A DNA stretch of 24,906 nucleotides. Origin: a virus. The stretch is from the IMG/VR virus record IMGVR_UViG_3300043446_002209, positions 1 to 24,906 of that record; one strand, given 5' to 3'. Positions 1,082 through 13,220 of the stretch are shown here, piece by piece (position 1 is the first letter of the stretch; each line of letters opens with the position of its first letter). The notes beneath the pieces were generated by a model. It was not told the origin of the DNA and searched no databases. It saw nothing but the letters and a program-made list of their open reading frames with translations. The translations under genes and the position numbers were made by a program.

Positions 1082-2389
1082 ATGACAACTGACTGGAATA
1101 AGGTTTTAGAATACCTCAGTCCCAAACTTCCACCATTCTGCCCTGAGGAACCTTCCGTAAACCAGAAGGTTTTTTTGAGGACAAATGCAATCGAAGGCCT
1201 GTTTGGCGGAGCAGCTGGGGGTGGGAAATCTTCTGCTCTACTTATGTCTGCACTACAATATGTAGACGTTCCAAATTATTCAGCAATTCTTTTTAGACGT
1301 ACATTTGCGGACTTATCACTTCCCGGCGCTCTTATGGACCGCTTCAAAAGTTGGATAAATCTTTACGATGATGTTCACTGGAATAACAACAGTTTCGTTG
1401 CTACATTTCCCTCTGGGGCCAGAATTTCATTCGGATACCTAAATAATGCCGGCGACTATCTTCGGTACAAGGGCTCAGAATTCCAGTTTGTAGGCATGGA
1501 CGAAGTTACAGAAATTAGAGAATCTGATTACAGATACTTGTTCTCCCGTTTGCGTCGCCCATCATCTGGCCCACTTGCCAAAGTCCCCCTCAGGATGAGG
1601 TGCGCCTCTAACCCTGCACCAAACTGGGTAAGACAACGCTTTATTGTTGAGGGGCCGACTACAGGGCGAATATTTGTACCCAGCAAACTTACTGACAACC
1701 CCGGAATTGACGCGGCCTCGTATCGCCAAGCCCTTTCGGCACTTGACCCAATCGAACGTAGGCGACTTGAAGAAGGCGACTGGTGGAGCACCACCCTTGG
1801 AAGCCTTTTTGACCGAACATCAATGGTCATACTTGATTCTAGTGAAGTTCCTCAAATATCTAGTACTGCCCGAGCGGTCCGTTTTTGGGACCTTGCGGCT
1901 ACCGAGCCATCCCCGGGGAACCCAGACCCAGACTGGACTGTTGGTACATTAATGCTGTTTGACCAAGGAATTGCCTATGTCATGGACGTTAAGCGCTTCA
2001 GATATAGGGGCGAAAAGGTCGAACATATGATTGCCCAGACCGCCTATGAGGATGGCCACGGTGTCCCTATAAGAATGGAACAGGAGCCTGGCTCAAGCGG
2101 AAAGGCCCTGGCTGACCAATATGCCCGATATGTCCTTCCGGGATATGACTTTCAGGCTATACGGTCAACTGGAGACAAGGTGACCAGAGCGCGTCCATTT
2201 GCCGCAGCAGCGGCCAACGGCAATGTCAGGGTTGTCCGTGGGGCATGGCTAACGGAATGGCTGGACGAGTTCTCTTCCTTCCCCGAAGCCTGCGACCACG
2301 ACGACCAAGTTGACTCGGCAGTTGGGGCTTTTACATTTTTAGCTGGTTTGGGGTTGTCTCAGAAGCGAGCTATCTCTATAGTTGTCTAG
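1082..2389 (+). CDS. terL: phage terminase large subunit (TerL)
   Basis: The 435-residue protein is the packaging motor: an N-terminal ATPase drives DNA into the head and a C-terminal RNase H-fold nuclease cuts concatemers. A Walker A-like P-loop, GGAAGGGKS, is at residues 42-50, with a preceding Q/N-rich segment that fits the adenine-binding region. A Walker B-like FQFVGMDE is at 134-141 with D140/E141. The nuclease domain begins near 267 with RFWDLAATEP, where D270 is the likely first metal ligand. HDDQVDSAVGAF at 406-417 supplies the C-terminal acidic residues (D407/D408, D411). Length is normal for TerL. No small terminase subunit is recognisable next to it. The gene points away from the portal and opens the long plus-strand series. 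ATG at 1082 is the first start in the frame; its Shine-Dalgarno is weak. Confidence 0.95.
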   Translation: MTTDWNKVLEYLSPKLPPFCPEEPSVNQKVFLRTNAIEGLFGGAAGGGKSSALLMSALQYVDVPNYSAILFRRTFADLSLPGALMDRFKSWINLYDDVHWNNNSFVATFPSGARISFGYLNNAGDYLRYKGSEFQFVGMDEVTEIRESDYRYLFSRLRRPSSGPLAKVPLRMRCASNPAPNWVRQRFIVEGPTTGRIFVPSKLTDNPGIDAASYRQALSALDPIERRRLEEGDWWSTTLGSLFDRTSMVILDSSEVPQISSTARAVRFWDLAATEPSPGNPDPDWTVGTLMLFDQGIAYVMDVKRFRYRGEKVEHMIAQTAYEDGHGVPIRMEQEPGSSGKALADQYARYVLPGYDFQAIRSTGDKVTRARPFAAAAANGNVRVVRGAWLTEWLDEFSSFPEACDHDDQVDSAVGAFTFLAGLGLSQKRAISIVV

Positions 2390-2431
2390 GTTAACAACCA
2401 CCTATATCAGAAGTACAAAGGAATACTAAAA

Positions 2432-2929
2432 ATGAGCATTGAAGCAATATCTGCTTTGCGTAAGTCCATTGTTGAACTTGAGGAAACTTTAATGTCCTCT
2501 CTGTCGGAGGAAACCACAGTCGAAGAGGCGGGAGCCATTCTGCTTGAGGTAAATCTAGCGAAGCGTGACCTTGGGTTCGTTTACGACACATTCAGCAATG
2601 CGTTCGCGTCCATGCTGAAAGATGCGGATTTGGTGCAGTTGCCAAATGGGGCACAAATTGAGAAAAAGTGCTCATACGACCGAAAGGGATGGCAACACAA
2701 GGAACTTGGCTCAGCAGTTGCTGACAAGTTAGTTCAAATGTCGGTCGATATGGACACTGGGGAAATTACCAAGACCCCATATCAAATCGCCACAGAGATT
2801 CTTAACTACTGTGCTCCTTCATATTGGAAAATCAAGGAGTTGCAAAAGTTGGGTATTAATGCAGATAATTACTGCGAAGTTGGTCAATTGAAAACAAGCA
2901 TTATCGTTAGAAAAGGTGATAACCAATGA
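2432..2929 (+). CDS. hypothetical phage protein in recombination module
   Basis: This 165-residue protein has no family I recognise. The N-terminal third (about residues 1-60) is acidic and probably helical. The middle contains QLPNGAQIEKKCSYDRKGWQHKEL (about 70-93), a polar patch rich in Lys, Arg and Trp. The C-terminus holds a YCEVGQLKTSIIVRKGD segment that looks like a beta hairpin. The start has AAAGGA about 9 bases upstream. Its stop overlaps the Rad52-family start by four bases (ATGA at 2926-2929), which implies translational coupling. A role with the annealing protein, such as a partner or single-strand DNA accessory factor, is inferred from position only. Confidence 0.8.
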   Translation: MSIEAISALRKSIVELEETLMSSLSEETTVEEAGAILLEVNLAKRDLGFVYDTFSNAFASMLKDADLVQLPNGAQIEKKCSYDRKGWQHKELGSAVADKLVQMSVDMDTGEITKTPYQIATEILNYCAPSYWKIKELQKLGINADNYCEVGQLKTSIIVRKGDNQ

Positions 2930-3597
2930 GTTCAGTTAATCCCTATCAGCAACTGTCCGAACCATTTGCTCCAGAGATGGAACGCACAATGTCTAAGGGC
3001 GGAACGCGCCTTGTATACATTCCAGTTAGCGAAGTAATCAATCGCTTGAATAAGGTGCTCGGTGTTGAAAGGTGGTCGTTCGAAATCATCTCATGCTCGC
3101 GCGACGCAATCGACCCAGACTACGTTGTCGCGCATGTGCGACTGACATGGAACCCAGACGATGACCACGCCTACGTTCAGCGTGACGGTTTTGGTGGTCA
3201 GAAGATTAAGCGCACCAAGTCCGGAGACATCGTTGACCTTGGCGATGAGATGAAGGGTGCTGTTTCTGATGCTCTCAAGAAGGCGGCCCAGACACTTGGT
3301 GTTGGCCTATATCTTGCTCGTTCGGAAGAGGCGATGGACATTGAGGATGCAATGGATGCAATGCCTACTCAACCGGAAATCGATGTGGAAATTCTCGCAA
3401 AGTGGGACAAGTTCACTGCGCTCGTTAAAGATTTGACCGATACGCAAAAGTCGGAACTCAATTCATTCTGGGCAAACTTCAGTGGTGGAAAGCCGAAGCC
3501 AACGAAAGCGACAGCAACGCACGAATCCCTTGATGCGCTCATTGCTGAAACGGTACGACTTTCGTTTGGCGGTGAGTATGCAGAGCCAGCAAACTGA
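2926..3597 (+). CDS. Rad52-family single-strand annealing protein
   Basis: The protein of 223 residues matches the Rad52/Rad22 core fold by motif: YIPVSEVINRLNKVLGVERWSFEI at about residues 31-54 (the conserved region in which Trp follows a Leu-Gly), a beta-rich segment to about 90 with the aromatic-Gly turn DGFGG (87-91), and GDEMKGAVSDALKKAAQTLG at about 106-125, the typical Rad52 helix. The family binds single-stranded DNA as rings and anneals complementary strands, and phages use it for recombination-dependent replication. The C-terminus (about 150-223) is variable and contains Lys-rich GGKPKPTKATATHE. The gene overlaps the unknown gene upstream by 4 bases and the nuclease gene downstream by about 20 bases. 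Together they resemble an annealase/nuclease pair such as Red beta/exo, with non-homologous components. Confidence 0.88.
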   Translation: MSSVNPYQQLSEPFAPEMERTMSKGGTRLVYIPVSEVINRLNKVLGVERWSFEIISCSRDAIDPDYVVAHVRLTWNPDDDHAYVQRDGFGGQKIKRTKSGDIVDLGDEMKGAVSDALKKAAQTLGVGLYLARSEEAMDIEDAMDAMPTQPEIDVEILAKWDKFTALVKDLTDTQKSELNSFWANFSGGKPKPTKATATHESLDALIAETVRLSFGGEYAEPAN

Positions 3598-4360
3598 ACT
3601 AACCCCTCCACCACATCTATCCGTATCATCAATACAGACATTCAATCAATGCCCTCTTAAATTTAAGTATGGCAAGATTGACCTATTGCCTGATGCTCCA
3701 AGTGAAGCTTCAATAATGGGTAATTTTGTTCATGACGTTCTAGAAGAGCTCTACAAGCTGGATGCAGAATCACGAACAAAAGATGCTGCCAGAGTTTTGG
3801 CTCGTCAACTATGGGAGGACAGGTGGAAAGAACCTGTATCTAACCTCCTAGTTCGCGATGATGTAATCAAGCAATTCCGCTGGAACTCATGGTGGTGCAT
3901 CGAAAACCTTTGGTCACTTGAATCACCGTCCTCAATAAGCCCTATTGGTCTCGAATATGAGGTAAATGCCAAGATTGAGGGCGTAGTAATTAAGGGATTT
4001 ATAGATAGATTTAGCGTTAGTAGTGATTCATTAATGCTTACTGTTTCTGATTATAAAACCGGAAAAACACCGCGTGAACCATATGTTGACGACAAGTTTT
4101 TTCAGCTCAACGTTTACGCCAAGATGCTTTCAGTGCTTGGAGTTGGAGATGTTGATACGGCTGAGTTGCTTTATCTGAAAGACGGTAAGCGACTAATCAG
4201 AAAAGTAAAAGACTCGGATATCCAGTCAGCAGTTGAAATAATCTGCGAAACAAAAGAAACAATCGATAAGTGCTGCGCTAGTGGCTATTTCGAACATAAC
4301 AAATCAATTCTTTGTAATTGGTGTAACTATAAAAGTATTTGTCCAGCATGGAGTAAGTAA
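3578..4360 (+). CDS. PD-(D/E)XK nuclease, Cas4/RecB-like, with likely Fe-S cluster
   Basis: From ATG 3578 the product is 260 residues. The N-terminus SVSSIQTFNQCPLKFKYGK (about 15-33) is the conserved start of Cas4/AddB-type RecB nucleases. H52 lies in GNFVHDVLEEL. The metal-binding core is D143 in KGFIDRF, and D158 with K160 in VSDYKTGK. FFQLNVYAKML (174-184) is the QxxxY motif. Four cysteines, C25 plus C246, C249 and C255 (CNWCNYKSIC), have the spacing of a 4Fe-4S cluster. The family degrades DNA ends to give single strands, which suits the Rad52-family gene that it overlaps. The frame is open back to 3482, but that part lies inside the Rad52 gene and shows no nuclease features. ATG 3578 has GGTGAG immediately upstream (close spacing), so the exact start is uncertain. 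No CRISPR genes are present, so this is a recombination nuclease and not part of adaptation. Confidence 0.9.
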   Translation: MQSQQTELTPPPHLSVSSIQTFNQCPLKFKYGKIDLLPDAPSEASIMGNFVHDVLEELYKLDAESRTKDAARVLARQLWEDRWKEPVSNLLVRDDVIKQFRWNSWWCIENLWSLESPSSISPIGLEYEVNAKIEGVVIKGFIDRFSVSSDSLMLTVSDYKTGKTPREPYVDDKFFQLNVYAKMLSVLGVGDVDTAELLYLKDGKRLIRKVKDSDIQSAVEIICETKETIDKCCASGYFEHNKSILCNWCNYKSICPAWSK

Positions 4361-4867
4361 ATGATTAGTGATGACGCATTCGCAAGCATGGTTGCTGAAG
4401 AAGTAAAGAATAAACTTTCGCAGAAACAGCGCCAAGAGCTTTTGAAGCCAGAAAACTGGGAGCGCTGGAAGGAAACACTTCTTGCTCTCGTTGACAATCT
4501 GCAGGAACAAATTGAACAAATTGACGAGGACTCTGAAGCAGACAGAATTCGTTATGAAGCTATGGGTTCCGATGGGCGACGTTTGGTGCGCGAATCAACG
4601 CAGGCTTACAACTCACGTAAGATGAAAGTAAATCGCTTTCTCTACCATGTAAATAAGCGACTTGATGAAGTCATGCACATGATTGAAACCGGTGAGGCTA
4701 TTAAGTCCGATGGTTGGGCTGAAGCAGAATTGTTTAAGAAGGCAATTATCAAGCACCGTTCAATGCTTAGGGATTTTGACCTTGAGGAAACATCAATTGA
4801 CCGAGCACTGTGGGATACTCTGAATGGCAAATGGAGCTTTGACTCCATTGATGCATCATCTTTGTAA
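4361..4867 (+). CDS. hypothetical helical phage protein
   Basis: The 168-residue protein is strongly charged and mainly helical. Residues about 15-60 (EVKNKLSQKQRQELL through NLQEQIEQIDED) have heptad-like spacing of hydrophobics suggesting a coiled coil, and NRFLYHVNKRLDEVMHMIE (about 90-108) is another amphipathic helix. I recognise no catalytic motif and no named family. The ATG follows the TAA of the nuclease gene directly, so the two are surely in one operon. An accessory role in DNA recombination or replication is inferred from position alone. Confidence 0.8.
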   Translation: MISDDAFASMVAEEVKNKLSQKQRQELLKPENWERWKETLLALVDNLQEQIEQIDEDSEADRIRYEAMGSDGRRLVRESTQAYNSRKMKVNRFLYHVNKRLDEVMHMIETGEAIKSDGWAEAELFKKAIIKHRSMLRDFDLEETSIDRALWDTLNGKWSFDSIDASSL

Positions 4868-4886
4868 CTAGCAATAAGGGGGCTTC

Positions 4887-5273
4887 ATGCTCAATCGCAG
4901 AAAACCCTTAAAAAGTAAAACACCACTGAAAGCGAAGACTGGTCTTAAGAAAACTGGTCAGTTGAAGAAACGCTCCAAGAAAATGGAAGACACATATAAA
5001 GAACGTCGACCATTTGTTGAGCGCATTCTTCGTGAGCGACCATTATGCGAGGCATGCAGAATATTTGCTGCCCACGATGGCAAGCAGGTATTTAATCATC
5101 ACATGAGCAGAGATGTGCATGAGATAATTCGCCGTTCTCAGGGTGGGTCAATACTTGATGATTCAAATGTTCTTGCTGTATGCAGGCCATGCCATATGCG
5201 CATTGGGAACTATCCGGAACTGGCATTTCAGCTTGGTTTAGCTAAGCATGGCTGGGAAAGAGATAATTCATAA
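4887..5273 (+). CDS. HNH endonuclease with Lys-rich N-terminal tail
   Basis: This 128-residue protein has a clear HNH nuclease domain. Zinc-binding knuckles are C54xxC57 (CEAC) and C99xxC102 (CRPC). The beta-beta-alpha-metal core contains DVHEIIRRSQGGS (76-88) with catalytic H78, then N94 in LDDSNVLAVC and H103. Residues 1-32 form a basic low-complexity tail with repeated Lys-Thr/Leu units (PLKSKTPLKAKTGLKKTGQL), likely for DNA binding. AGGGGG lies 4-5 bases before the ATG. In phages such HNH proteins either help the terminase at packaging, often when adjacent to terminase, or act as free-standing homing nucleases. Here it sits at the end of the recombination module, about 2.5 kb from terL, so either role is possible. 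Confidence 0.9.
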   Translation: MLNRRKPLKSKTPLKAKTGLKKTGQLKKRSKKMEDTYKERRPFVERILRERPLCEACRIFAAHDGKQVFNHHMSRDVHEIIRRSQGGSILDDSNVLAVCRPCHMRIGNYPELAFQLGLAKHGWERDNS

Positions 5274-5314
5274 AACTTTTGCTCATTTCTGTAATTGTTT
5301 TGAAACTAAAATAA

Positions 5315-5340
5315 GTGTTAGGTAGTACCTAAAGCAACAC
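5315..5340. repeat. inverted repeat, possible operator
   Basis: TTAGGT-AGT-ACCTAA (5318-5332) is a perfect 6-base inverted repeat with a 3-base centre. GTG at 5315-5317 and CAC at 5338-5340 could extend it around a 5-base bulge. It overlaps the -10 position of a weak promoter-like pair (TTGAAA at 5300-5305, 17-base spacer, TAGTAC at 5323-5328). It could be a repressor site or a small hairpin; no regulator gene is nearby to decide. Confidence 0.4.
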
Positions 5341-5356
5341 TAACTTTCGAGACAAG

Positions 5357-5437
5357 AAAGGCGAGGTGGTCCAATGTCTAGTGGTTTCATCCACGGCAAG
5401 GAAGCTGAGGTCGCGTAGGGGGACATCACCTACCTTT
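5357..5437 (+). ncRNA. candidate structured RNA / leader enclosing a mini-ORF
   Basis: AAAGG 5357-5361 pairs with CCTTT 5433-5437, and AGGTGGT 5364-5370 pairs with ATCACCT 5425-5431 (one G-U), separated by a CG/A internal loop. This 12-pair stem contains the Shine-Dalgarno of the 14-codon ORF in its 5' strand. Inside is a GTGG/CCAC hairpin (5381-5394). A competing hairpin GTAGG 5415-5419 with CCTAC 5429-5433 would free the Shine-Dalgarno. Mutually exclusive pairings of this kind are typical of translational switches or attenuators. It matches no named riboswitch that I recognise. Pairings were found by eye; no energy was calculated. Confidence 0.4.
5374..5418 (+). CDS. candidate 14-residue leader peptide
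   Basis: ATG 5374 to TAG 5416-5418 encodes MSSGFIHGKEAEVA. GAGGTG at 5363-5368 lies 5 bases upstream, one of the best ribosome binding sites in the window. After the TAG the same frame reads GDITYL and then TGA, so it could also be the remnant of a longer gene. The placement of the Shine-Dalgarno inside a predicted stem makes a leader-peptide role plausible. Coding is not shown by anything beyond the ribosome binding site. Confidence 0.35.
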   Translation: MSSGFIHGKEAEVA

Positions 5438-5449
5438 GACTACAAGCCC

Positions 5450-5485
5450 ACAACCGCTGGCAGCTCTGCAGGCTCCGGCGGTTGT
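5450..5485 (+). terminator. strong GC-rich stem-loop, possible terminator
   Basis: ACAACCGCTGG (5450-5460) pairs with CCGGCGGTTGT (5475-5485) over 11 positions with one G-U. After a bulged C, AGC 5462-5464 pairs with GCT 5472-5474 around a 7-base loop. The 3' side continues TTGCTGCTTG, which is not a clean T tract, so an intrinsic terminator is possible but it may simply be an RNA stem. Confidence 0.4.
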
Positions 5486-5492
5486 TTGCTGC

Positions 5493-5520
5493 TTGGGAAC
5501 ATATTTTATTGTGCTATAAA
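5493..5520 (+). promoter_or_regulatory. promoter-like sequence before the resolvase gene
   Basis: TTGGGA (5493-5498) and TATAAA (5515-5520) are separated by 16 bases and match the sigma70-type consensus at 4 of 6 and 5 of 6 positions. Transcription would start near 5527, giving a leader of about 90 bases that contains the stem-loop at 5564-5603 before the RuvC-like start at 5620. Confidence 0.35.
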
Positions 5521-5563
5521 TAATGTGCTGGGCGTGCTCATCAAAACCTTAGGACCGTTACAG

Positions 5564-5603
5564 GTGCAGAAGCCGGGGGGCTAGTTCTCCTCGGCTTCTG
5601 CAT
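5564..5603 (+). terminator. long stem-loop followed by T-rich run, terminator or attenuator
   Basis: GCAGAAGCCG (5566-5575) pairs perfectly with CGGCTTCTGC (5592-5601). GGGGG 5576-5580 pairs with CTCCT 5587-5591 (two G-U), leaving the 6-base loop CTAGTT; outer T5565-A5602 and G5564-T5603 add two more pairs, about 17 in all. A T-rich run (5611-5618) follows about 8 bases later, longer than the usual distance. It sits just before the resolvase start at 5620, so it either ends upstream transcription or attenuates entry into the next genes. Confidence 0.5.
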
Positions 5604-5619
5604 GTAGTAGGTTATTTTT

Positions 5620-6153
5620 ATGATTTGCATTATGGGATTGGACCTATCCCTCACCTCAACCGGATATTCAGTTGGTGGGAAAACTGGAACTATCGCCACA
5701 AAGACAAGAGGGGCAGAGCGTCTATCAGTCATATCAAATGACATAATTGATATAACATGTTCGGCTGATGTAGATATTGTTGTTGTAGAGGGTTACTCGT
5801 TTGCTTCTAGAAATAGCCAAGCTCACAGCATCGGTGAACTTGGTGGGGCCGTCAGGATGAGGCTTTGGGAATGTGGGACTCCTTACATAGATATCCCTCC
5901 AACGTGTAGAGCAAAGTTTGCTACTGGAAAAGGTAATGCATCCAAAAATGAAGTCATATCTTCGATATCGGCAAAAACTGGAATTGTTTGGTCTGGAGCT
6001 GGAGCTGATGACATGTGCGACGCATGGATTTTGGAACAAATGGGAATAGCAAAATTAGGTTCGTCTCTGTATGATTGGACCGAATCACAGTTATCAGCCT
6101 TAGAGAAGGTGGACTGGAGCCCAATGGAGGGGATGCTTGCTAAAGACAAATAA
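5620..6153 (+). CDS. RuvC-like Holliday junction resolvase
   Basis: The 177-residue product has the RuvC/RNase H-fold layout: GLDLSLTSTGYS (6-17) with D8, DIVVVEGYSF (52-61) with E57, a Lys-rich segment TGKGNASKNEV (102-112) typical of RuvC, and GADDMCDAWIL (128-138) with D130/D131/D134. The four acidic positions expected for two-metal catalysis are therefore present. It would cut four-way junctions formed by the annealing protein or branched DNA before packaging. ATG 5620 is preceded by AGTAGG about 7 bases upstream. The M at residue 5 is an alternative start with no ribosome binding site. The gene is separated from the rest of the recombination module by the structured non-coding region. 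Confidence 0.9.
   Translation: MICIMGLDLSLTSTGYSVGGKTGTIATKTRGAERLSVISNDIIDITCSADVDIVVVEGYSFASRNSQAHSIGELGGAVRMRLWECGTPYIDIPPTCRAKFATGKGNASKNEVISSISAKTGIVWSGAGADDMCDAWILEQMGIAKLGSSLYDWTESQLSALEKVDWSPMEGMLAKDK
6126..6139 (+). promoter_or_regulatory. ribosome binding site that fixes a TTG start
   Basis: GGAGGGG at 6126-6132 lies 4 bases before TTG 6137, inside the end of the resolvase gene. No ATG occurs in that frame until well into the protein, so this site decides the start. Confidence 0.6.
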
Positions 6154-6478
6154 TCCAATAAGTCAGATTGATATCGAGAATGAACTTATTCGGTTACTCG
6201 GAGACCTTGAGTCAGAGACTGAAGCATTTGAAGTTCTCGCGATTGATGCTTCTAAAAAAGAAGCACTTTATAAGTCAAATTGGGCGAAAGAATATCTTTC
6301 TGCAAAGGGTTCTATTAAAGAGCGAGAATCATGGGCTGATTACAAGATGGACGAAATGGCCTATGACTTCAAAATTGCAGAAGCGCTAGTTAAGACAAAG
6401 CGTGAAAAACTCACGTCATTGCGTACCGCCATTGATGCTATGCGGACACTTAACGCAAATGTTAGGGTTCAAGTATGA
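6137..6478 (+). CDS. small helical phage protein, unknown function
   Basis: The product has 113 residues. It starts at TTG and overlaps the resolvase by 17 bases. Charged, helical sequence runs throughout: IDIENELIRLLGDLESETEAFE, then ALYKSNWAKEYLSAKGSIKERESWADY, then two helices ending RTAIDAMRTLNANVRVQV. The arrangement of an N-terminal acidic helix, a YKxxWAKxxL motif, a GSIKERE turn and a C-terminal RxLNANVR segment resembles a widespread family of small proteins from replication or recombination modules of phages of Gram-positive bacteria. I know no established biochemical role. The stop overlaps the next start (ATGA at 6475-6478). Confidence 0.8.
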   Translation: MLKTNNPISQIDIENELIRLLGDLESETEAFEVLAIDASKKEALYKSNWAKEYLSAKGSIKERESWADYKMDEMAYDFKIAEALVKTKREKLTSLRTAIDAMRTLNANVRVQV

Positions 6479-6786
6479 GACTCAGCAAAAATGGATTGAA
6501 ATTATTCCCGAATCGACTTACTAAATCCTGGATTAAAACGATTGACGGGAGTACGAAATCTTATACAGAATTTCGCTCACAAATAACTGAAGCACTTGGC
6601 TGCCCATGGAATACAGCTCCCAAAAACATCGATGAATTTATCGAAGTCTGTGATGCTCGCGCCAAATGGGAAAAAGAAAACAATGCCTCAGCACCATTGA
6701 ATTGGAGCTGCATAATCTCGCACTCATTATTTGAAGATATGGCTAGAGAAGTAAAGGAATTACGCAATGCCAAACGGAATACATGA
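6475..6786 (+). CDS. hypothetical phage protein
   Basis: This 103-residue protein belongs to no family I can name. The N-terminus is basic (MRLSKNGLKLFPNRLTKSW). The middle contains SYTEFRSQITEALGCPW and FIEVCDARAKWEKENN, probably helical. It overlaps its upstream neighbour by 4 bases and the ParB-like gene downstream by 20 bases, so it is part of one translationally coupled series. The overlaps and the lack of a better frame support it as a real gene. Confidence 0.75.
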   Translation: MRLSKNGLKLFPNRLTKSWIKTIDGSTKSYTEFRSQITEALGCPWNTAPKNIDEFIEVCDARAKWEKENNASAPLNWSCIISHSLFEDMAREVKELRNAKRNT

Positions 6787-7546
6787 ATCCTTACTGCCTC
6801 TTGCGGTAGATATTGAAACGTTGCAACTTCTTGATGGAAATCCACGCATTGGTGATGTTGATGCAATCATGGCTTCATACCAAGAATTTGGACAGGTCAA
6901 GCCAATAGTTGCTAAAAAGAATGATGATGGTACCGCAACGGTTATTGCTGGAAACCACCAGTTACAGGCTGCAACAATGCTTGGCTGGGACAAAATAGCT
7001 GTTGTATTCCTTGATGCAGATGATAAGCGTGCAGTGGCATTCGCAATAGCCGATAACCGAACAATGGAGCTTGGCTACACAGAACCTGAATTGTTAGAAG
7101 GGCTGCTTACTGAAATTAGTGACTTCTATCCGGAGCTTCTTGAAGGTCTTGGGTGGGATGAATTTGATATGGCCGAAATCGGTTACGAATCGAACAGAGG
7201 GGCATCTGATTTAGTTGATACTGGTGCGTATGTTCCGCCAGTAATTACCGCAGTTCCCGTAGAGCAACCACAGAGAGTCCTCCATGTCGCTGAAGATAAC
7301 TCTGGAGAACGCCGTATCGTTGCTGACCCAACCGCAAATCAGGCTGACGTAGCCGTTCGTGGCTCAACAGTTTCCGGAACAAATGCTCCACAAGCTGTTG
7401 TCCAGTACACGATTGTGTTTGACAACCCGCAACAGCAGACAAAATGGTACGACTTTATTAAGTGGCTCAAATCAGATGCCGGAACAGATGGCGGAACCAC
7501 TGCAGAGCGCCTAATCAATTTCATTGAGGACCATACGCCAGCATGA
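6767..7546 (+). CDS. ParB/Srx-type N-domain protein (first of two)
   Basis: The 259-residue protein has an N-terminal ParB/sulfiredoxin-like domain: NPRIGDVDAIMASYQEFGQVKPIV (25-48), VIAGNHQLQAATMLGW (59-74), and AFAIADNRTMELG (91-103). The position that is usually GERR or GHxR in ParB box II reads GNHQ here, so the usual arginine for CTP/phosphate contact is absent. Residues about 104-145 are acidic and helical. The C-terminal 110 residues have no recognisable domain, with a low-complexity part near 170-205. In phages and in the IbrB/IbrA pair such domains lie next to PAPS-reductase-like genes, exactly as here: the stop overlaps the start of the next gene by 4 bases (ATGA at 7543-7546). Biochemical activity (nuclease, NTPase or other) cannot be read from sequence. 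Confidence 0.85.
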   Translation: MPNGIHESLLPLAVDIETLQLLDGNPRIGDVDAIMASYQEFGQVKPIVAKKNDDGTATVIAGNHQLQAATMLGWDKIAVVFLDADDKRAVAFAIADNRTMELGYTEPELLEGLLTEISDFYPELLEGLGWDEFDMAEIGYESNRGASDLVDTGAYVPPVITAVPVEQPQRVLHVAEDNSGERRIVADPTANQADVAVRGSTVSGTNAPQAVVQYTIVFDNPQQQTKWYDFIKWLKSDAGTDGGTTAERLINFIEDHTPA

Positions 7547-8682
7547 CCCGCCAAAGAATGTTCCTTGACATGAGTTGCGTTGAGGCAGCTCGTCAGAGGA
7601 TACGCCATGTGTATGACACATTCGATACTGTCTGTGTTCAGTTTTCTGGCGGAAAAGATTCAACTGCAGTTCTGTATCTTGCAAAAGAAGTTCATGACGA
7701 ACGAGGCCTTGGACCAGTAAAAGTCATCTTTAGAGATGAAGAGATGGTCAGTCCATCTGTAGTCGAATATGTTGAAAAGGTCAGAAACTATGACTGGGTT
7801 GATATGGAATGGTATTGCCTTCCATACCCAGCAGAGATATGGGTTCTCGGTACTCGGGTAACTACTCTTTTATGGAGCAATATTAGAAAAGAAATGGGCA
7901 CTCTCGTACGGGATATGCCTCCGTGGGCTATTCACGGTGGTCATTTTGGTCTCAGTCACGATGTCTCACTTCCTGAACAAACCGACTATTACACAATGCA
8001 AGGCAAGGTTGGAAACGTTGCTTTCATAACCGGAGTTCGCGCCAGCGAATCAATGGTTCGCTATAGGTCCATAGTTCAAAAACTTCACGAAAACTATATT
8101 GTCACTCCATACAAACTAAAGCGCGGAATCCCGCTGAAGTTCGCAAAAGTCATTTATGACTGGAATACGGATGATGTTTTTAAATTCATTGCTGAAGAGC
8201 ACGGAGCAGAATTCTGCGAATACTATGACCTTGCTGCGCTAACTGGCAGCAATACGCGAGTCGGCATTCCACTACATAGCGTTGCAATTCGTCGCATAGG
8301 TGATGTTGTGGCTACTGAACCCGAATTTTACGACAGATTGTTCGAGTGCTTCCCAGAGGTAGATGCCCAAAGGAGATGGTGGCCAGATTTTGATATTGAA
8401 AAATTAATATCTGGTTATTCTAAATATGGTTTTGCTGGTGCTGGTTATTTTATAAATGATTATATGATTGGTGAAATTAGACAACGGGATGCCAGAGCAT
8501 ATGTAGCACGATTTAGAAAAAAGCATCTGGAGGACCCATACGGCTATCCGGTCAGTTGGCTAATACGAAACCTTGCACTTAATGACATAGATGTCAATTC
8601 TCCAACCCCGGTTGGACCAAGGACGCGAGCAAATACAGTTCGGATAATTGAGGCAGAAAGAGAAGATTCTGATGGATATTAA
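7543..8682 (+). CDS. PAPS reductase-like PP-loop protein (IbrA/DndC-type)
   Basis: The product has 379 residues. The PP-loop SGGKDS at residues 35-40 follows a hydrophobic strand (TVCVQF) and marks the adenine nucleotide alpha-hydrolase fold. FRDEEMVSPSVVEYVE (63-78) corresponds to the acidic stretch of IbrA-like proteins, and ITGVRASESMVRYRS (162-176) is the second substrate/nucleotide motif. YDWNTDDVFKFI is the conserved motif of the reductase group. True PAPS reductases end in an ECGLH motif with the catalytic Cys, which I do not see. Sulfate reduction is therefore unlikely; adenylation or thiolation-type chemistry, or regulation, is more likely. It is sandwiched between two ParB-like genes with 4- and 11-base overlaps. 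DndC-like DNA modification is one conceivable role but no other dnd genes are present. Confidence 0.88.
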   Translation: MTRQRMFLDMSCVEAARQRIRHVYDTFDTVCVQFSGGKDSTAVLYLAKEVHDERGLGPVKVIFRDEEMVSPSVVEYVEKVRNYDWVDMEWYCLPYPAEIWVLGTRVTTLLWSNIRKEMGTLVRDMPPWAIHGGHFGLSHDVSLPEQTDYYTMQGKVGNVAFITGVRASESMVRYRSIVQKLHENYIVTPYKLKRGIPLKFAKVIYDWNTDDVFKFIAEEHGAEFCEYYDLAALTGSNTRVGIPLHSVAIRRIGDVVATEPEFYDRLFECFPEVDAQRRWWPDFDIEKLISGYSKYGFAGAGYFINDYMIGEIRQRDARAYVARFRKKHLEDPYGYPVSWLIRNLALNDIDVNSPTPVGPRTRANTVRIIEAEREDSDGY

Positions 8683-9220
8683 ATACGTAAACGTATCTGA
8701 ATTAGTTATTCCGGACTGGCGTTGCACATATATTCTACGTCCAGACCTTATGGTTATCTCTTCTTCATTGTCTGAGTATGGTTTTATACAGCCAATACAT
8801 ATACGCCGTGGAACAAATGAAGTGATTGATGGTTCAGAACGTGTGAAGCTTACGCTCAATGTCAAGCAAATAAATAAAAAAACTGGTGGTGTCATTCCAG
8901 TAATCGAGCATGATATTGATTCTCTATCCGCAATAATGATGCATCTTCAACTCAATAGGGGCAGGGGGATGATTATGGCGAAGAAAATGTCAGACGCCAT
9001 AAAGAAATTGTATTTGTCAGGAAAATATGAAGCTCGCCATTTTGATTCAATGCTCTGCATGAAGCGAGAAGAAATTCAATTAATGCTTAACGGTTCTCTT
9101 TTAAAAACTAGAAATATCCCAGAACATACATATTCAAGAGCGTGGGTGCCCGTAGAAGCACCGCCTGGAACAATTGATGGCGGGCAAATCATAGAAAGAC
9201 CGCCCAATTCGGATAGGTGA
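8672..9220 (+). CDS. ParB-like protein (second), N-domain plus helical DNA-binding part
   Basis: From ATG 8672 the protein is 182 residues. VNVSELVIPDW (7-17) and LMVISSSLSEYGFIQPIHIRR (26-46) form the first ParB segment. EVIDGSERVKLTL (50-62) is the GERR-like box. IMMHLQLNRGRGMIMAKKMSDAIKKL (88-113) resembles ParB box III and its following helices, and RHFDSMLCMKREEIQLMLNGSL (122-143) looks like the helix-turn-helix. This ParB is thus closer to classical ParB than the first copy. A longer version from TTG 8648 is less likely. The gene overlaps the PAPS-reductase-like gene by 11 bases. A promoter-like site follows immediately, suggesting the end of the operon. Confidence 0.85.
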   Translation: MDIKYVNVSELVIPDWRCTYILRPDLMVISSSLSEYGFIQPIHIRRGTNEVIDGSERVKLTLNVKQINKKTGGVIPVIEHDIDSLSAIMMHLQLNRGRGMIMAKKMSDAIKKLYLSGKYEARHFDSMLCMKREEIQLMLNGSLLKTRNIPEHTYSRAWVPVEAPPGTIDGGQIIERPPNSDR

Positions 9221-9221
9221 A

Positions 9222-9248
9222 TTTACTAAATACCGATAATGCTATAAT
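9222..9248 (+). promoter_or_regulatory. promoter-like sequence before the connector/tail module
   Basis: TTTACT (9222-9227) and a perfect TATAAT (9243-9248) are separated by 15 bases. Transcription would start near 9255, about 28 bases before the ATG at 9284. It lies at the boundary between the ParB cassette and the structural genes, where a late promoter is expected. The spacer is shorter than optimal. Confidence 0.5.
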
Positions 9249-9283
9249 TTGCTCTACTTTACTCTCTACAAAGTGAGGCAAAT

Positions 9284-9826
9284 ATGCCAGGCGTACGCTG
9301 GGGAAATGACATTACGGATGAAGCAGCGCTTCGCGTAGAAAATATTGATGCTTTGGAGAGGGAGCTATCCAATCCAAAAATTGGAAAAGAGAGACAAGCT
9401 AATTTATTGAAAACACTTGCTGACGTTCGGGCAGAGACTAAGTCTGTATTTGGTTCGGAGCGCGGGGCAAGGAGTTTAGCTAAATTCGCAACTTACGATG
9501 GTGGAACCGTCGAGGCCCCAAATGGCGTTACATATAAATCTCGGCCAAAACTTTCTAAATCTGCTCATAGAATTGCTGCTCGCGCTGGTGCAACCCAGGG
9601 AGGAAATCCGCTTGGTACATCAAGCTACAACGCAGGACGAACCGCACGTACTTCAGCACGCAACCCCGTCGGCCGCGAGGGGGCAAGTCCGCTTAGAGCA
9701 ACAAGCGAACGGTTGAGAGAGCAGGATGCTGCAAGAAGAATTGACAATGCAGGTCGCGGAATGCGTGCAGATAGTAGAACTGGGCGTGTAAATACATCAA
9801 ATAAGAAAAAGCCAAAAACTTCGTAA
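9284..9826 (+). CDS. basic hypothetical protein before the connector genes
   Basis: This 180-residue protein is unrecognised. The first 70 residues contain a charged helical part (ALRVENIDALERELSN; ANLLKTLADVRAETK). Then comes YDGGTVEAPNGVTYKSRPK (about 71-89). The C-terminal half is rich in Arg, Ala, Gly and Ser (for example GREGASPLRATSERLREQD) and ends in Lys (NKKKPKTS), so it is probably disordered and strongly basic. GTGAGG lies 7-8 bases before the ATG. Being first after the promoter-like site and next to the connector gene suggests a minor virion or assembly protein, and the basic tail would suit DNA contact inside the head; this is inference. Confidence 0.75.
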   Translation: MPGVRWGNDITDEAALRVENIDALERELSNPKIGKERQANLLKTLADVRAETKSVFGSERGARSLAKFATYDGGTVEAPNGVTYKSRPKLSKSAHRIAARAGATQGGNPLGTSSYNAGRTARTSARNPVGREGASPLRATSERLREQDAARRIDNAGRGMRADSRTGRVNTSNKKKPKTS

Positions 9827-9839
9827 CCGGAGGTGACTG

Positions 9840-10490
9840 ATGTTGGTCACCGTTTCTGACCTAACAAACTACATGGACATCCGTTTTAGCCTGCGCCAGC
9901 AGGACGCGGCTGAGATGGTTCTTGCCGGATTGCAGAATGAGCTAGAGGCTTTTTTACGTCGTCCTATAGAGGTGGAGGAATTCACCGAGGAATACGTCCT
10001 TCCATCTAGCCAGCACGGTGTGCCCATGGGCACATTCTTAAGCATGCCCAACAGCTACATGTACAGCGACTCGTTCTATCGAACAAATCCGGTTGACAAC
10101 ATGCTTTACGCGGAACCACCAAACACTATTTACCTCCGCAACTCACCAGTAGTTTCTGTATCTTCCGTAGTGGTAAAGCCACAACATGGCAATATACGTA
10201 CATTAACGGTAAATAATGATTATGTCGTTCGTAGATACGGAATTGACTACTTCTATGGGTTTGATAATGACCTAGTAACAATTACGTATACGGCTGGAAT
10301 AGATGGCGCGAATATCCCAATGTTTAAATTACTGATATTACGCGCAGCCACGAGAGAAATGCAGAACATGCATGATGATGTTGTGGGCGTAAAGGACCTT
10401 AATACCCGCAACGTTGCACCATTAATTACTGGATTCCTAGATTCAGAACTTAACTCTGTTAGAAAGTACAGAAGAGTTAGAGTTGCTTAA
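9840..10490 (+). CDS. head-tail connector (adaptor) protein
   Basis: The 216-residue product looks like the first connector that binds below the portal (gp6/gp15-type adaptor). The N-terminus LVTVSDLTNYMDIRFSLRQQDAAEMVLAGLQNELEAFLRRPI (2-43) has the typical pattern of two helices ending in a Leu-x-Arg-Pro motif. A beta-rich middle follows (IYLRNSPVVSVSSVVV, then LVTITYTAGID), then a C-terminal helix (LLILRAATREMQNM) and an Arg-rich end. This order matches connector proteins of HK97-like heads. GGAGGTG lies 6 bases before the ATG. The next gene starts directly after its stop. Confidence 0.75.
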   Translation: MLVTVSDLTNYMDIRFSLRQQDAAEMVLAGLQNELEAFLRRPIEVEEFTEEYVLPSSQHGVPMGTFLSMPNSYMYSDSFYRTNPVDNMLYAEPPNTIYLRNSPVVSVSSVVVKPQHGNIRTLTVNNDYVVRRYGIDYFYGFDNDLVTITYTAGIDGANIPMFKLLILRAATREMQNMHDDVVGVKDLNTRNVAPLITGFLDSELNSVRKYRRVRVA

Positions 10491-10952
10491 ATGACAACAG
10501 TAATAGTTGAAGTAGATATCAATATAAAGAATGCCAAGGAGATGATGGACCGCATCTCCAAAAATGCACGCGATATGCGTCCGGTCTGGAAATATGCCAA
10601 AAGGGAGCTAGAGGTAGCGTTTACAACCAACTTCCTTAGTGGCGGAAGTTTGGTCCCCGGAGGATGGGCCCCATTGGATAGGGGATACGCGGCATGGAAG
10701 GCAGTACATTTCCCAGGAGCTAGAAAGCTCGTTATAGATGGACGACTCTTTAAAAGCGTTGCGGACCTTGACTCTCCTGCTGTTAATAAAATTACGCCTC
10801 TTAGTGCCGAATTTGGAACAGATGTTGAATATGCAAAGTTCCATCAATATGGAACTACAAAGATGCCGGCCCGTAAAATCATCTTTGAGCCCAAGGGATT
10901 TGCTAGAGACATAGCCCGTAAAGCAAAAGAACACATACTTAGCGAGGACTGA
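10491..10952 (+). CDS. tail completion / virion morphogenesis protein (Mu gpG-like)
   Basis: The protein has 153 residues. The segment EYAKFHQYGTTKMPARKIIFEP (about 114-135) is the signature of the phage virion morphogenesis and HK97 gp10-like families, in which (F/Y)HQxG and PARxF are conserved. WAPLDRGYAAWKAVHFPGARKLVIDGRLFKSV in the middle is also typical (a Lys-Leu...Gly-x-Leu motif after the WxPL). These proteins sit at the head-tail junction and complete tail or neck assembly. It lies between the connector and the probable tail terminator, which fits this job. Confidence 0.8.
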   Translation: MTTVIVEVDINIKNAKEMMDRISKNARDMRPVWKYAKRELEVAFTTNFLSGGSLVPGGWAPLDRGYAAWKAVHFPGARKLVIDGRLFKSVADLDSPAVNKITPLSAEFGTDVEYAKFHQYGTTKMPARKIIFEPKGFARDIARKAKEHILSED

Positions 10953-10953
10953 A

Positions 10954-11613
10954 ATGGCTGATGCTCCTGGCTACTTCTTAATGAACGGTTCGCATATGGC
11001 CAAGGCCTATGTGAATGACTACCTAAAAACGGACATCCCCGTTCGTCTAGTTGATTACAGAAATGGTTGGCAGGTAGATGATATCCACCTTCCAACACCA
11101 GAAGAGTTCATAACCTACGAACCTCTTGCAATAGATGCTTGGCCAACGGTTATAACAGTCGCGATATCTACCAGCAAATTCGACAGATTCGGACATTTTG
11201 GGGCCGACCCGACATATCGAGTTTCCTATCAGATGCGTACATATGTATGGGTACGAACCGAGGGAAATGAAGAAGTAACCCTTATGCGTGACCGTTTAGC
11301 AACTGTCCTGCGTGCTGCACTTCTTGACTATCCGTGTCTGAAGGCTTATGACGCACGAACATCGTTCAGGGCAATGATTGATGAAGGAACAATGTCAGAA
11401 GAATTTTCCGACATCACTTTACTTAAGGGCGACAGGTCGATGGCGGGTGCATACATTGGCTACACCTTAGATATAGATGAAATTGTTGCACGTAGAAATA
11501 TCGGCACAGTTAACCAGATTGGCCTCACATTTCTATCTGCATCACCAGAAGAAGCACTATCCGTATCTGATGAATCAACGCTTCCGGTTGCTGCAAGTGT
11601 CAATATTTCGTAG
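10954..11613 (+). CDS. probable tail terminator / neck protein
   Basis: This 219-residue protein starts one base after the previous stop. PTVITVAISTSKFDRFG (about 64-80) followed by TYRVSYQMRTYVWVRT (87-102), VTLMRDRLATVLRAALLDYP (108-127) and AYIGYTLDIDEIVAR (165-179) give the beta-beta-helix-beta order of tail terminator proteins, which cap the tail and bind the neck. The family cannot be named with certainty from sequence alone. Its position, between the completion protein and the sheath, is where the terminator gene lies in many myophages. A 113-base gap follows before the sheath. Confidence 0.6.
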   Translation: MADAPGYFLMNGSHMAKAYVNDYLKTDIPVRLVDYRNGWQVDDIHLPTPEEFITYEPLAIDAWPTVITVAISTSKFDRFGHFGADPTYRVSYQMRTYVWVRTEGNEEVTLMRDRLATVLRAALLDYPCLKAYDARTSFRAMIDEGTMSEEFSDITLLKGDRSMAGAYIGYTLDIDEIVARRNIGTVNQIGLTFLSASPEEALSVSDESTLPVAASVNIS

Positions 11614-11726
11614 CAACTATTTACATTATTCTTTTTAAAGTTGCATCAAAAAATCGTTTGTCATCTGTACAATATAAAACGTTGGATGGGATTTATCCCC
11701 ACGACATGAGTCAATAGGAAGGTCTT

Positions 11727-13220
11727 ATGCCAGGCGTAGTCATCTCCACAGCAGTAAGAACAGGACCATCAGCAGATACGGTTCGCGAAACGTCACAGCT
11801 ATTTGTCGTCGGCTTGGCCGAGCGTGGTCCATCAAATGAAGCTGTTTTGGTTGAGAGCCTTCAGGACTTTGAATTTAAGTTTGGCGAATATATCGCAGCA
11901 TCTTACCTTCACCCAACAATCGAAACATTCTTCGAAGAGGGCGGCACCCGTGCTTATGTATCGCGCGTTGTAGGTGGTGACGCAACATCTGGTACAAAGA
12001 ATCTAAATGGTGTTCTTTCGCAGTCTGGCTCAACAGTTCTTACGCTCGATGCAAATGGTGCAGGCGACTGGAGCCACAATGTCACAGTAACAGTAGAACA
12101 CATTGTTACAAACGTTAGTTTCAGAGTCAAGCTCTACTACAACGGTGACATTGTTTACAACACTGGAACTGTTACTTCGGTTGCGCAAGCTGCTGGTCGA
12201 ATCAATACAAACGTAGTTGCCTCAAAGTACGTAACCGCAACTCCAGCATCATACGCAACAACAATTCCTGCCGCAGTAACAGGTCAAGCTCTCACGGCGG
12301 GAGATTCAGACAACGGTGCAGTAACAGATTCAGACCTCATTGCTGGACTGGACCTCTTTAACGATGCGCTTGGTGCTGGTGCTGTATGTATTCCTGATGC
12401 AGAAGTTGCAGAGGGCAATACTGACTACACAGTGTCGGAAGCTCTGATTGCACATGCCAATTCAAATAATAGAATTGCCATTCTTCACTCAGCCCAGAAT
12501 GACTCTGCTGCTGACGTAAAGGATAAGTCAACTGCGCTTCAGACGGTAGAAAATGCTGAACATGCAGCAATCTACTACCCATGGATTTCAATCCCAACGT
12601 CAATAACTGGCATCACACGCTCAATACCGGCTGACGGTTATGTAGCTGCAAAGCGCGCAATGGCCCACAATACAGCCGGTCCACACACGCCAGCAGCTGG
12701 TGTTATGTCAGCATCCCAGTTTGTATCTGCAACAGAGACGGATATCAGCAAGGCAGTCGGTGACGACCTTGATGAGAATGGCGTAAATGCAATTCGTGTC
12801 ATCCAAAACAGCATTCGCATCTACGGTGCGCGCTCGCTTTCAGCAGATGTCGAAAACTTCCGCTATATCACAACCCAAGATATCGTGAATAGCGTTGTTG
12901 TAGAAGCTCAGCGTTCACTGGAAGACTTGGTCTTCAGCGCAATTGATGGTCGCGACACGATTTACTCAAATATCTCATCACGCCTTACAGCAATATGCGC
13001 ACGCATGAAAGACCTCGGAGCACTCTTCGAGGCACGCCAGGCTGATGGAAAGCTCATCGACCGTGGATACACGGTTCGCTGTGATGCAACTCTTAACCCA
13101 ATCTCGCAACTTGCCGGAGGAACGGTTAAGGCAAAAGTTGGTCTCCGCACAAGCACGGTCGGTGACAAAATCGAAGTCGAAATTACAAAGTCCAACCTAA
13201 CAGCTAGCGTTGTTCAGTAA
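11727..13220 (+). CDS. contractile tail sheath protein
   Basis: The 497-residue protein is the contracting outer tube of the tail. Typical sheath motifs are FVVGLAERGP (26-35) near the N-terminus, FFEEGGTRAYVSRVVG (68-83), and a C-terminal domain with IRIYGARSLS, VVEAQRSLEDLVFSAI, a GYTVRCDATLNP segment and the final KVGLRTSTVGDKIEVEI strands that form the inter-subunit mesh. A variable domain inserted between about residues 95 and 190 is Thr/Val-rich and probably exposed. AGGAAGG lies 5-6 bases before the ATG. The upstream 113-base gap (11614-11726) is AT-rich, with TACAATATAAA at 11668-11678 as a possible -10 region but no convincing -35. Confidence 0.95.
   Translation: MPGVVISTAVRTGPSADTVRETSQLFVVGLAERGPSNEAVLVESLQDFEFKFGEYIAASYLHPTIETFFEEGGTRAYVSRVVGGDATSGTKNLNGVLSQSGSTVLTLDANGAGDWSHNVTVTVEHIVTNVSFRVKLYYNGDIVYNTGTVTSVAQAAGRINTNVVASKYVTATPASYATTIPAAVTGQALTAGDSDNGAVTDSDLIAGLDLFNDALGAGAVCIPDAEVAEGNTDYTVSEALIAHANSNNRIAILHSAQNDSAADVKDKSTALQTVENAEHAAIYYPWISIPTSITGITRSIPADGYVAAKRAMAHNTAGPHTPAAGVMSASQFVSATETDISKAVGDDLDENGVNAIRVIQNSIRIYGARSLSADVENFRYITTQDIVNSVVVEAQRSLEDLVFSAIDGRDTIYSNISSRLTAICARMKDLGALFEARQADGKLIDRGYTVRCDATLNPISQLAGGTVKAKVGLRTSTVGDKIEVEITKSNLTASVVQ

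Follow-up and report, generated by a model that had tools for sequence, protein, structure and literature searches.

A conserved ParB1–IbrA–IbrB gene cassette in a viral sequence record is probably a DNA-modification module

We analysed computationally the whole 24,906 bases (hereafter the window) of the IMG/VR virus record IMGVR_UViG_3300043446_002209, probably a phage fragment, concentrating on a cassette of three plus-strand genes. Gene 1 (ParB1; 6767–7546) encodes a protein of 259 amino acids, gene 2 (7543–8682) an IbrA-like ATP-pyrophosphatase of the PP-loop type (379 amino acids) and gene 3 (8672–9220) an IbrB-like ParB-fold protein (182 amino acids). Genes 1 and 2 overlap by four bases (ATGA) and genes 2 and 3 by 11 bases, gene 3 starting at the ATG at 8672. 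A first-pass annotation, made from the sequence alone, had described these three overlapping reading frames and their motifs, all of which are as it had stated.

In profile searches, gene 2 matches the Pfam family PAPS_reduct (PF01507, 4e-9) and phrog_2302 (1.2e-71), and it aligns with IbrA homologues of plasmids. Its PP-loop SGGKDS (residues 35–40; 7645–7662, plus strand) is invariant in the IbrA family, as are D65, E67, W111, G164, R166, E169, S170, R173, D206, W207, D211 and Y228. Because the domain DUF3440 (PF11922), present at 1.8e-33 in the Escherichia coli plasmid homologue, is undetected in gene 2 at E ≤ 1, we call the protein IbrA-like and not IbrA. Going by the database names alone, gene 2 would be a phage-borne 3′-phosphoadenosine-5′-phosphosulfate (PAPS) reductase, a cysH-type auxiliary metabolic gene serving sulfur metabolism. 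This is highly improbable, however, as the protein matches neither of the CysH/PAPS_reductase equivalog models (TIGR00434 and TIGR02057) at E ≤ 1, combines an intact SGGKDS PP-loop with the lack of a conserved catalytic cysteine, and belongs to a gene type strictly linked to ParB genes; in the family alignment, no cysteine is conserved across the whole IbrA family. By its sequence, gene 2 is thus not a PAPS reductase. Enzymes of the PP-loop superfamily use ATP to adenylate a carbonyl or carboxyl group, releasing pyrophosphate, and by analogy the same chemistry would be expected of gene 2. No solved structure is related by sequence to gene 2 or gene 3.

For all three genes, the profile matches far exceed what chance would give. 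Gene 1 matches the Pfam family ParB_N (6.7e-7) and phrog_723 (3.8e-38), whereas gene 3 matches phrog_2159 (4.5e-19) and has no Pfam match at all, so that the first-pass description of the second ParB as the more classical one was mistaken. AlphaFold2 models of both proteins were built from alignments of 57–58 homologues. The gene 3 model (mean predicted local distance difference test score, pLDDT, 86.0) superimposes on KorB (8qa9_B; Z 12.3, 3.7 Å, 143 residues, range 1–153), the match spanning both the nucleoside triphosphate (NTP)-binding domain and the domain that contains the helix-turn-helix (HTH). For the gene 1 model (mean pLDDT 86.8), ParB (7bnr_B) gives a match of Z 12.7 across residues 11–100 and KorB (8qa9) one of Z 11.9 across residues 7–150. 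Because their models match ParB and KorB structures, both are predicted to be ParB-fold proteins, which for gene 3 agrees with the earlier assignment. Gene 1 consists of a ParB NTP-binding and a KorB/Noc-like helical (HTH) domain (residues ~7–150), a linker and a C-terminal segment. Its last ~45 residues, a strand-like YTIVFD followed by two helices, are kept in the IbrA-linked ParB1 proteins and may form a ribbon-helix-helix DNA-binding unit.

Neither protein keeps GERR, the phosphate-binding motif of ParB. In gene 1 it is replaced by GNHQ (residues 62–65; 6950–6961, plus strand), of which GNH is invariant across the sample of modification-linked ParB1 proteins, and in gene 3 by GSER. According to a recent survey, sequence does not predict which NTP a ParB-like protein binds (PMC12704722). 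The replacement of GERR in both proteins speaks against a role in plasmid-prophage partition, which the ParB fold and the database names would otherwise suggest. In addition, a ParA-type ATPase (PF13614) is absent from 14 of the 16 cassette records searched, the other two having one partial match over and one under the cut-off, with the window itself probably being a fragment. We consider partition very unlikely.

Gene 3 can be aligned to the partner ParB proteins that neighbour IbrA on Klebsiella and E. coli plasmids and in Streptococcus, Flavobacterium, Bacillus, Rhizobium, Arthrobacter and Mycobacterium elements, and genes of its type always lie downstream of a gene of the gene 2 type. The alignment identifies gene 3 as the counterpart of IbrB and gene 1 as an additional ParB of a different family. 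The link to IbrA/IbrB made in the first-pass annotation was therefore right, but the pairing of genes 1 and 2 that it implied was not. Instead of the N-terminal NPN and the DGFHR of other IbrB proteins, gene 3 has PDWRCTY and DGSER (residues 53–57; 8828–8842, plus strand), and for this reason we call it IbrB-like; the SER type predominates in its lineage. A further motif, LNRGRG, occupies residues 94–99.

The cassette is an old and strictly conserved set. Among the 84 viral contig loci with the nearest relatives of gene 2 or gene 3, gene 3 lies beside gene 2 in every case (84/84), and the cassette is complete in each of the 80 that extend as far as gene 1. In order not to use the cassette as its own anchor, we also collected relatives of a downstream connector gene (9840–10487); each of the 44 contigs with enough upstream sequence again had all three genes. 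These counts bear out the earlier suggestion that the three genes form a coherent system. The order ParB1–IbrA–IbrB recurs in Arthrobacter Laroyevirus (genes 5–7), Pipefishvirus mycobacteriophages (genes 1, 4 and 5), a Mycobacterium abscessus prophage (genes 93, 95 and 97), Bacillus 031MP003 (genes 81, 82 and 86), Rhizobium phages and a prophage-like plasmid of Amycolatopsis. Among 336 IbrA-family loci, 152 have both ParB1 and IbrB nearby and 167 IbrB only; natural fusions among the three proteins were not found in 337 loci.

A tree of 126 dereplicated IbrA-family proteins splits in two with a Shimodaira–Hasegawa-like support of 100; as FastTree warned of long branches, only this split and not the fine order was used. 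One clade has three genes and includes the window, the other is the two-gene IbrA–IbrB clade of plasmids, chromosomes and other phages. A single alignment column separates them, that of Cys225 of gene 2 (within F-C-E-Y-Y-D; codon 8215–8217, plus strand), which is Cys in 35 of 36 three-gene proteins and in none of the 90 two-gene proteins, 89 of which have Asn. The apparent link between Cys225 and ParB1 does not represent many independent events but reduces on the tree to three changes and three independent pairs, and the residue is therefore treated as a clade marker and not as proof of correlated evolution. Outside the three-gene clade, a Gammaproteobacteria contig (L182:244–3762) has a ParB1-like gene and Cys at the 225 position, a possible independent recurrence of the pairing.

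The conservation of Cys225 in the three-gene clade would also be compatible with a gene 2 that, like DndC, put sulfur on the DNA backbone with the help of a host cysteine desulfurase. Gene 2 has a distant similarity to DndC (PADLOC DndC 1.6e-8; TIGR03183 4e-5), and a resemblance to DndC has been suggested for PAPS-like genes of M. abscessus prophages (PMC8092301). DndC has a distinct cysteine dyad (PMC10853773), however, whereas one cysteine is conserved in the three-gene clade and none family-wide; the DndC model scores 22.6 bits against a cut-off of 290 bits; and a cysteine desulfurase (PF00266) is absent from 16 of 16 cassette records in a search aimed at this enzyme and not at DndD/E, although a host could supply the enzyme. 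Phosphorothioation therefore appears improbable.

Some IbrA loci had seemed to lack partners altogether. Five of them (L135:3979–5799, and L140, L153, L157 and L162) have neither ParB1 nor IbrB, but their IbrA gene is located downstream of another ParB-superfamily-like protein, with the motif NGQHR, possibly another partner arrangement; in three of the five (L135, L140 and L153), the two are separated by a gene of the pyrimidine-dimer-glycosylase-like type (PF03013, 1.3e-20 in L135). In a further locus (L121), a downstream ParB-like gene had been missed by the profile. Three loci (L137:4515–5405, L148:4527–5402 and L158:5042–6001) carry a histone-deacetylase-family gene (PF00850, 1e-24 in L148) between ParB1 and IbrA, which might be a sign that the modification includes an acyl or polyamine group.

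The position of the cassette is shared with known DNA-modifying enzymes. In Bclasvirinae mycobacteriophages and neighbouring phages, the interval from ParB1, which is gene 1 of the genome, to the terminase is a swap slot. In the Pipefishvirus Phlyer, it holds IbrA–IbrB, while in Rosebushvirus rosebush Brownie5 and Saguarovirus Saguaro it holds a queuine transglycosylase, QueC, QueD, QueE and FolE (the transglycosylase calls rest on record annotation and literature). In Acadianvirus Baee, a transglycosylase is joined there by a deacetylase and a glycosyltransferase of the TAGT family (3.4e-40); the slot of Nocardia NTR1 has a TAGT (6.8e-36), and that of Gordonia Yago84 has two genes, one acetyltransferase-like and the other formyltransferase-like. 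Liquid chromatography–mass spectrometry found dPreQ0 at ~28% of the guanines in the DNA of Rosebush (PMC6884629). QueC is present in both preQ0 records and in none of the 14 IbrA-cassette records tested. The ParB1 proteins of the window, Brownie5 (2.5e-65), Phlyer (3.1e-76) and Arthrobacter phage Shrooms (8.5e-66) all match phrog_723 and, judged by these profile matches, are of one family. Homologues of this type are common to preQ0, Mom and methyltransferase loci: in Arthrobacter phage Shade, one is located two genes from Mom (PF25680, 4.3e-61), and in Gordonia phage Valary, one is fused to a DNA methyltransferase.

To put a number on this association, we assigned Pfam families to the neighbours of ParB1 in 50 dereplicated IMG/VR loci, considering the 25 commonest families. 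Of the 138 genes up to 2.2 kb from ParB1, 23 belong to unambiguous modification families (QueC 7, P-loop kinase 3 7, TAGT 3, ADDT 2, C5 methylase 2, PTPS 2), against five of the 114 genes that these loci have at a distance of over 3 kb (Fisher p = 0.002, only indicative because many of the loci are from kindred Bclasvirinae, so that their independence is overstated, and because the count covers only those 25 families). Weak Tet_JBP matches near ParB1 were left outside this strict count, those checked individually being below the Pfam cut-off.

In two further loci (L349:6612–8225 and L350:5188–6852), ParB1 lies beside a long protein with another, NPR-type ParB motif, accompanied in L350 by a methyltransferase; they are a possible further variant of a ParB-paired modification locus. 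Within the window, the large terminase gene (1082–2389) and the tail sheath gene (11727) are separated by recombination genes, HNH, RuvC and the cassette, and neither a portal nor a major capsid gene was recognised between them (1082–11727).

Because IbrA–IbrB changes places with known modification enzymes in one slot, and because ParB1 homologues are found beside Mom and fused to methyltransferases, we read the cassette as a ParB-assisted phage DNA-modification module, with a probability of roughly 60%. Gene 2 would use ATP to activate its target, and its placement on the DNA would fall to ParB1 and IbrB under NTP control; the cassette would thus probably make a chemical mark on the phage's own DNA. 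More specifically, gene 2 would adenylate the carbonyl group of a base, or the carboxylate of a base modified beforehand, and the adenylated group would then be replaced by a nucleophile. IbrB and ParB1, as NTP-binding proteins with HTH-like domains, would serve as clamps or switches, keeping gene 2 on phage DNA or setting its position there, and the mark might protect that DNA. This positioning role is modelled on DpdB, for which the same has been proposed with respect to the preQ0-inserting DpdA. DpdB is a ParB-like ATPase that works with DpdA (PMC12839542), and independent authors have proposed the ParB ORF1 of B-cluster phages as a DpdB homologue (PMC6392294). The making of a DNA modification, already put forward in the first-pass annotation, is thus the best-supported function, the strongest evidence being the slot shared with known modification enzymes. 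We would go further only tentatively, at somewhat less than even odds, and propose a type of DNA modification not yet described, in which two ParB-type NTP switches work on DNA alongside a PP-loop ATP-pyrophosphatase that has no sulfur relay, ParB1 being a general-purpose loader common to preQ0, Mom, glycosyl and methyl systems.

Several points, beside the kinship of the ParB1 loci, weigh against a DNA-modification module. Position in a slot argues by association, and the role of ParB1 in the preQ0 loci is itself putative. Brownie5 gp2, the annotated transglycosylase, has no Pfam match; the window's own lineage offers no alternative occupant of the slot, the 44 connector-anchored contigs all having the same cassette; and we found no measured DNA modification for any cassette phage. 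Finally, the function named for IbrA/IbrB in E. coli is transcriptional co-activation.

That function is the basis of an alternative in which IbrA/IbrB co-activate the genes of a prophage or host, with ParB1 as an extra DNA-binding regulator. Phage records do carry the name "co-activator of prophage gene expression", both ParB proteins have KorB-like HTH domains, KorB being a transcriptional repressor, and the E. coli K-12 relatives ybdN–ybdM are part of a regulated operon (PMC9068703). Co-activation leaves unexplained, however, why the ATP-pyrophosphatase motif is invariant and why the genes exchange in one slot with preQ0 and glycosyltransferase enzymes, and we regard it as unlikely, if less so than any other alternative considered here. 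As a DNA mark could itself alter transcription, co-activation and DNA modification are not mutually exclusive.

The target might also be RNA (tRNA or rRNA) or a free nucleotide. The PP-loop enzymes TilS and LarE are among the general sequence neighbours of gene 2, and in three phage groups a small methyltransferase with a weak resemblance to Erm (1.3e-6) adjoins IbrA–IbrB. Two ParB proteins of a DNA-binding type and a slot in common with DNA-modifying enzymes argue against such a target, which we judge to be about as improbable as phosphorothioation. The small methyltransferase, S-adenosylmethionine-dependent by type, was seen in Arthrobacter, Mycobacterium and Bacillus elements (L086:5589–6164, L088:6977–7579 and L089:6088–6636) and was not found in the lineage of the window.

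The individual parts of the cassette are known, as is ParB-linked phage DNA modification as a kind; what is new in a DNA-modification module of this composition is the enzyme pair and its product, and the papers that we found do not discuss ParB1–IbrA–IbrB as a DNA-modification set. Sulfur metabolism is the function reported for phage genes that bear the name "PAPS reductase", and partition or nuclease activity that for ParB genes. The evidence indicates that both database names are misleading in this large clade, the genes being part of a DNA-modification island. The cassette further makes it possible to test directly the IbrA/IbrB pair of enterobacterial plasmids and E. coli K-12 (YbdN/YbdM), which has long been undefined, and it suggests a testable role for the otherwise unexplained ParB-like proteins found repeatedly next to DNA-modifying enzymes of phages.

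Among known systems, CysH shares with gene 2 the Pfam domain PF01507, but gene 2 differs in its intact PP-loop and in the absence of an equivalog match and of a conserved catalytic cysteine. DndC is of the same broad PP-loop ATP-pyrophosphatase superfamily and is often accompanied by the ParB-type DndB, whereas gene 2 is without the cysteine dyad, scores far under the cut-off and has no DndA that we could find. In the 5-carboxymethylcytosine pathway, CmoX/CmoY, an ATP-dependent, AMP-forming ligase (CmoY) of the asparagine-synthetase-like type acts on DNA, and ParBc genes occur alongside in many contigs (PMC12783734); no CmoA or CmoX was recognised in the cassette, and gene 2 comes from the PAPS/IbrA branch. 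IbrA/IbrB of plasmids, prophages and E. coli K-12 (YbdN/YbdM) resemble the window in the order of a PP-loop protein followed by a ParB-fold protein and have 23 near-invariant residues in common with gene 2, including SGGKDS, GxRxxES and DWxxD. The window differs from them by its separate deep clade (support 100), the extra upstream ParB, Cys225 in place of Asn, the lack of a detectable DUF3440 and DGSER in place of NPN/DGFHR in the IbrB-like protein. The preQ0 loci of Rosebush-type mycobacteriophages (DpdA and the ParB-like ORF1), lastly, have a ParB1 of the same family (phrog_723) at the same pre-terminase position and use a transglycosylase and preQ0 synthesis where the cassette has IbrA–IbrB.

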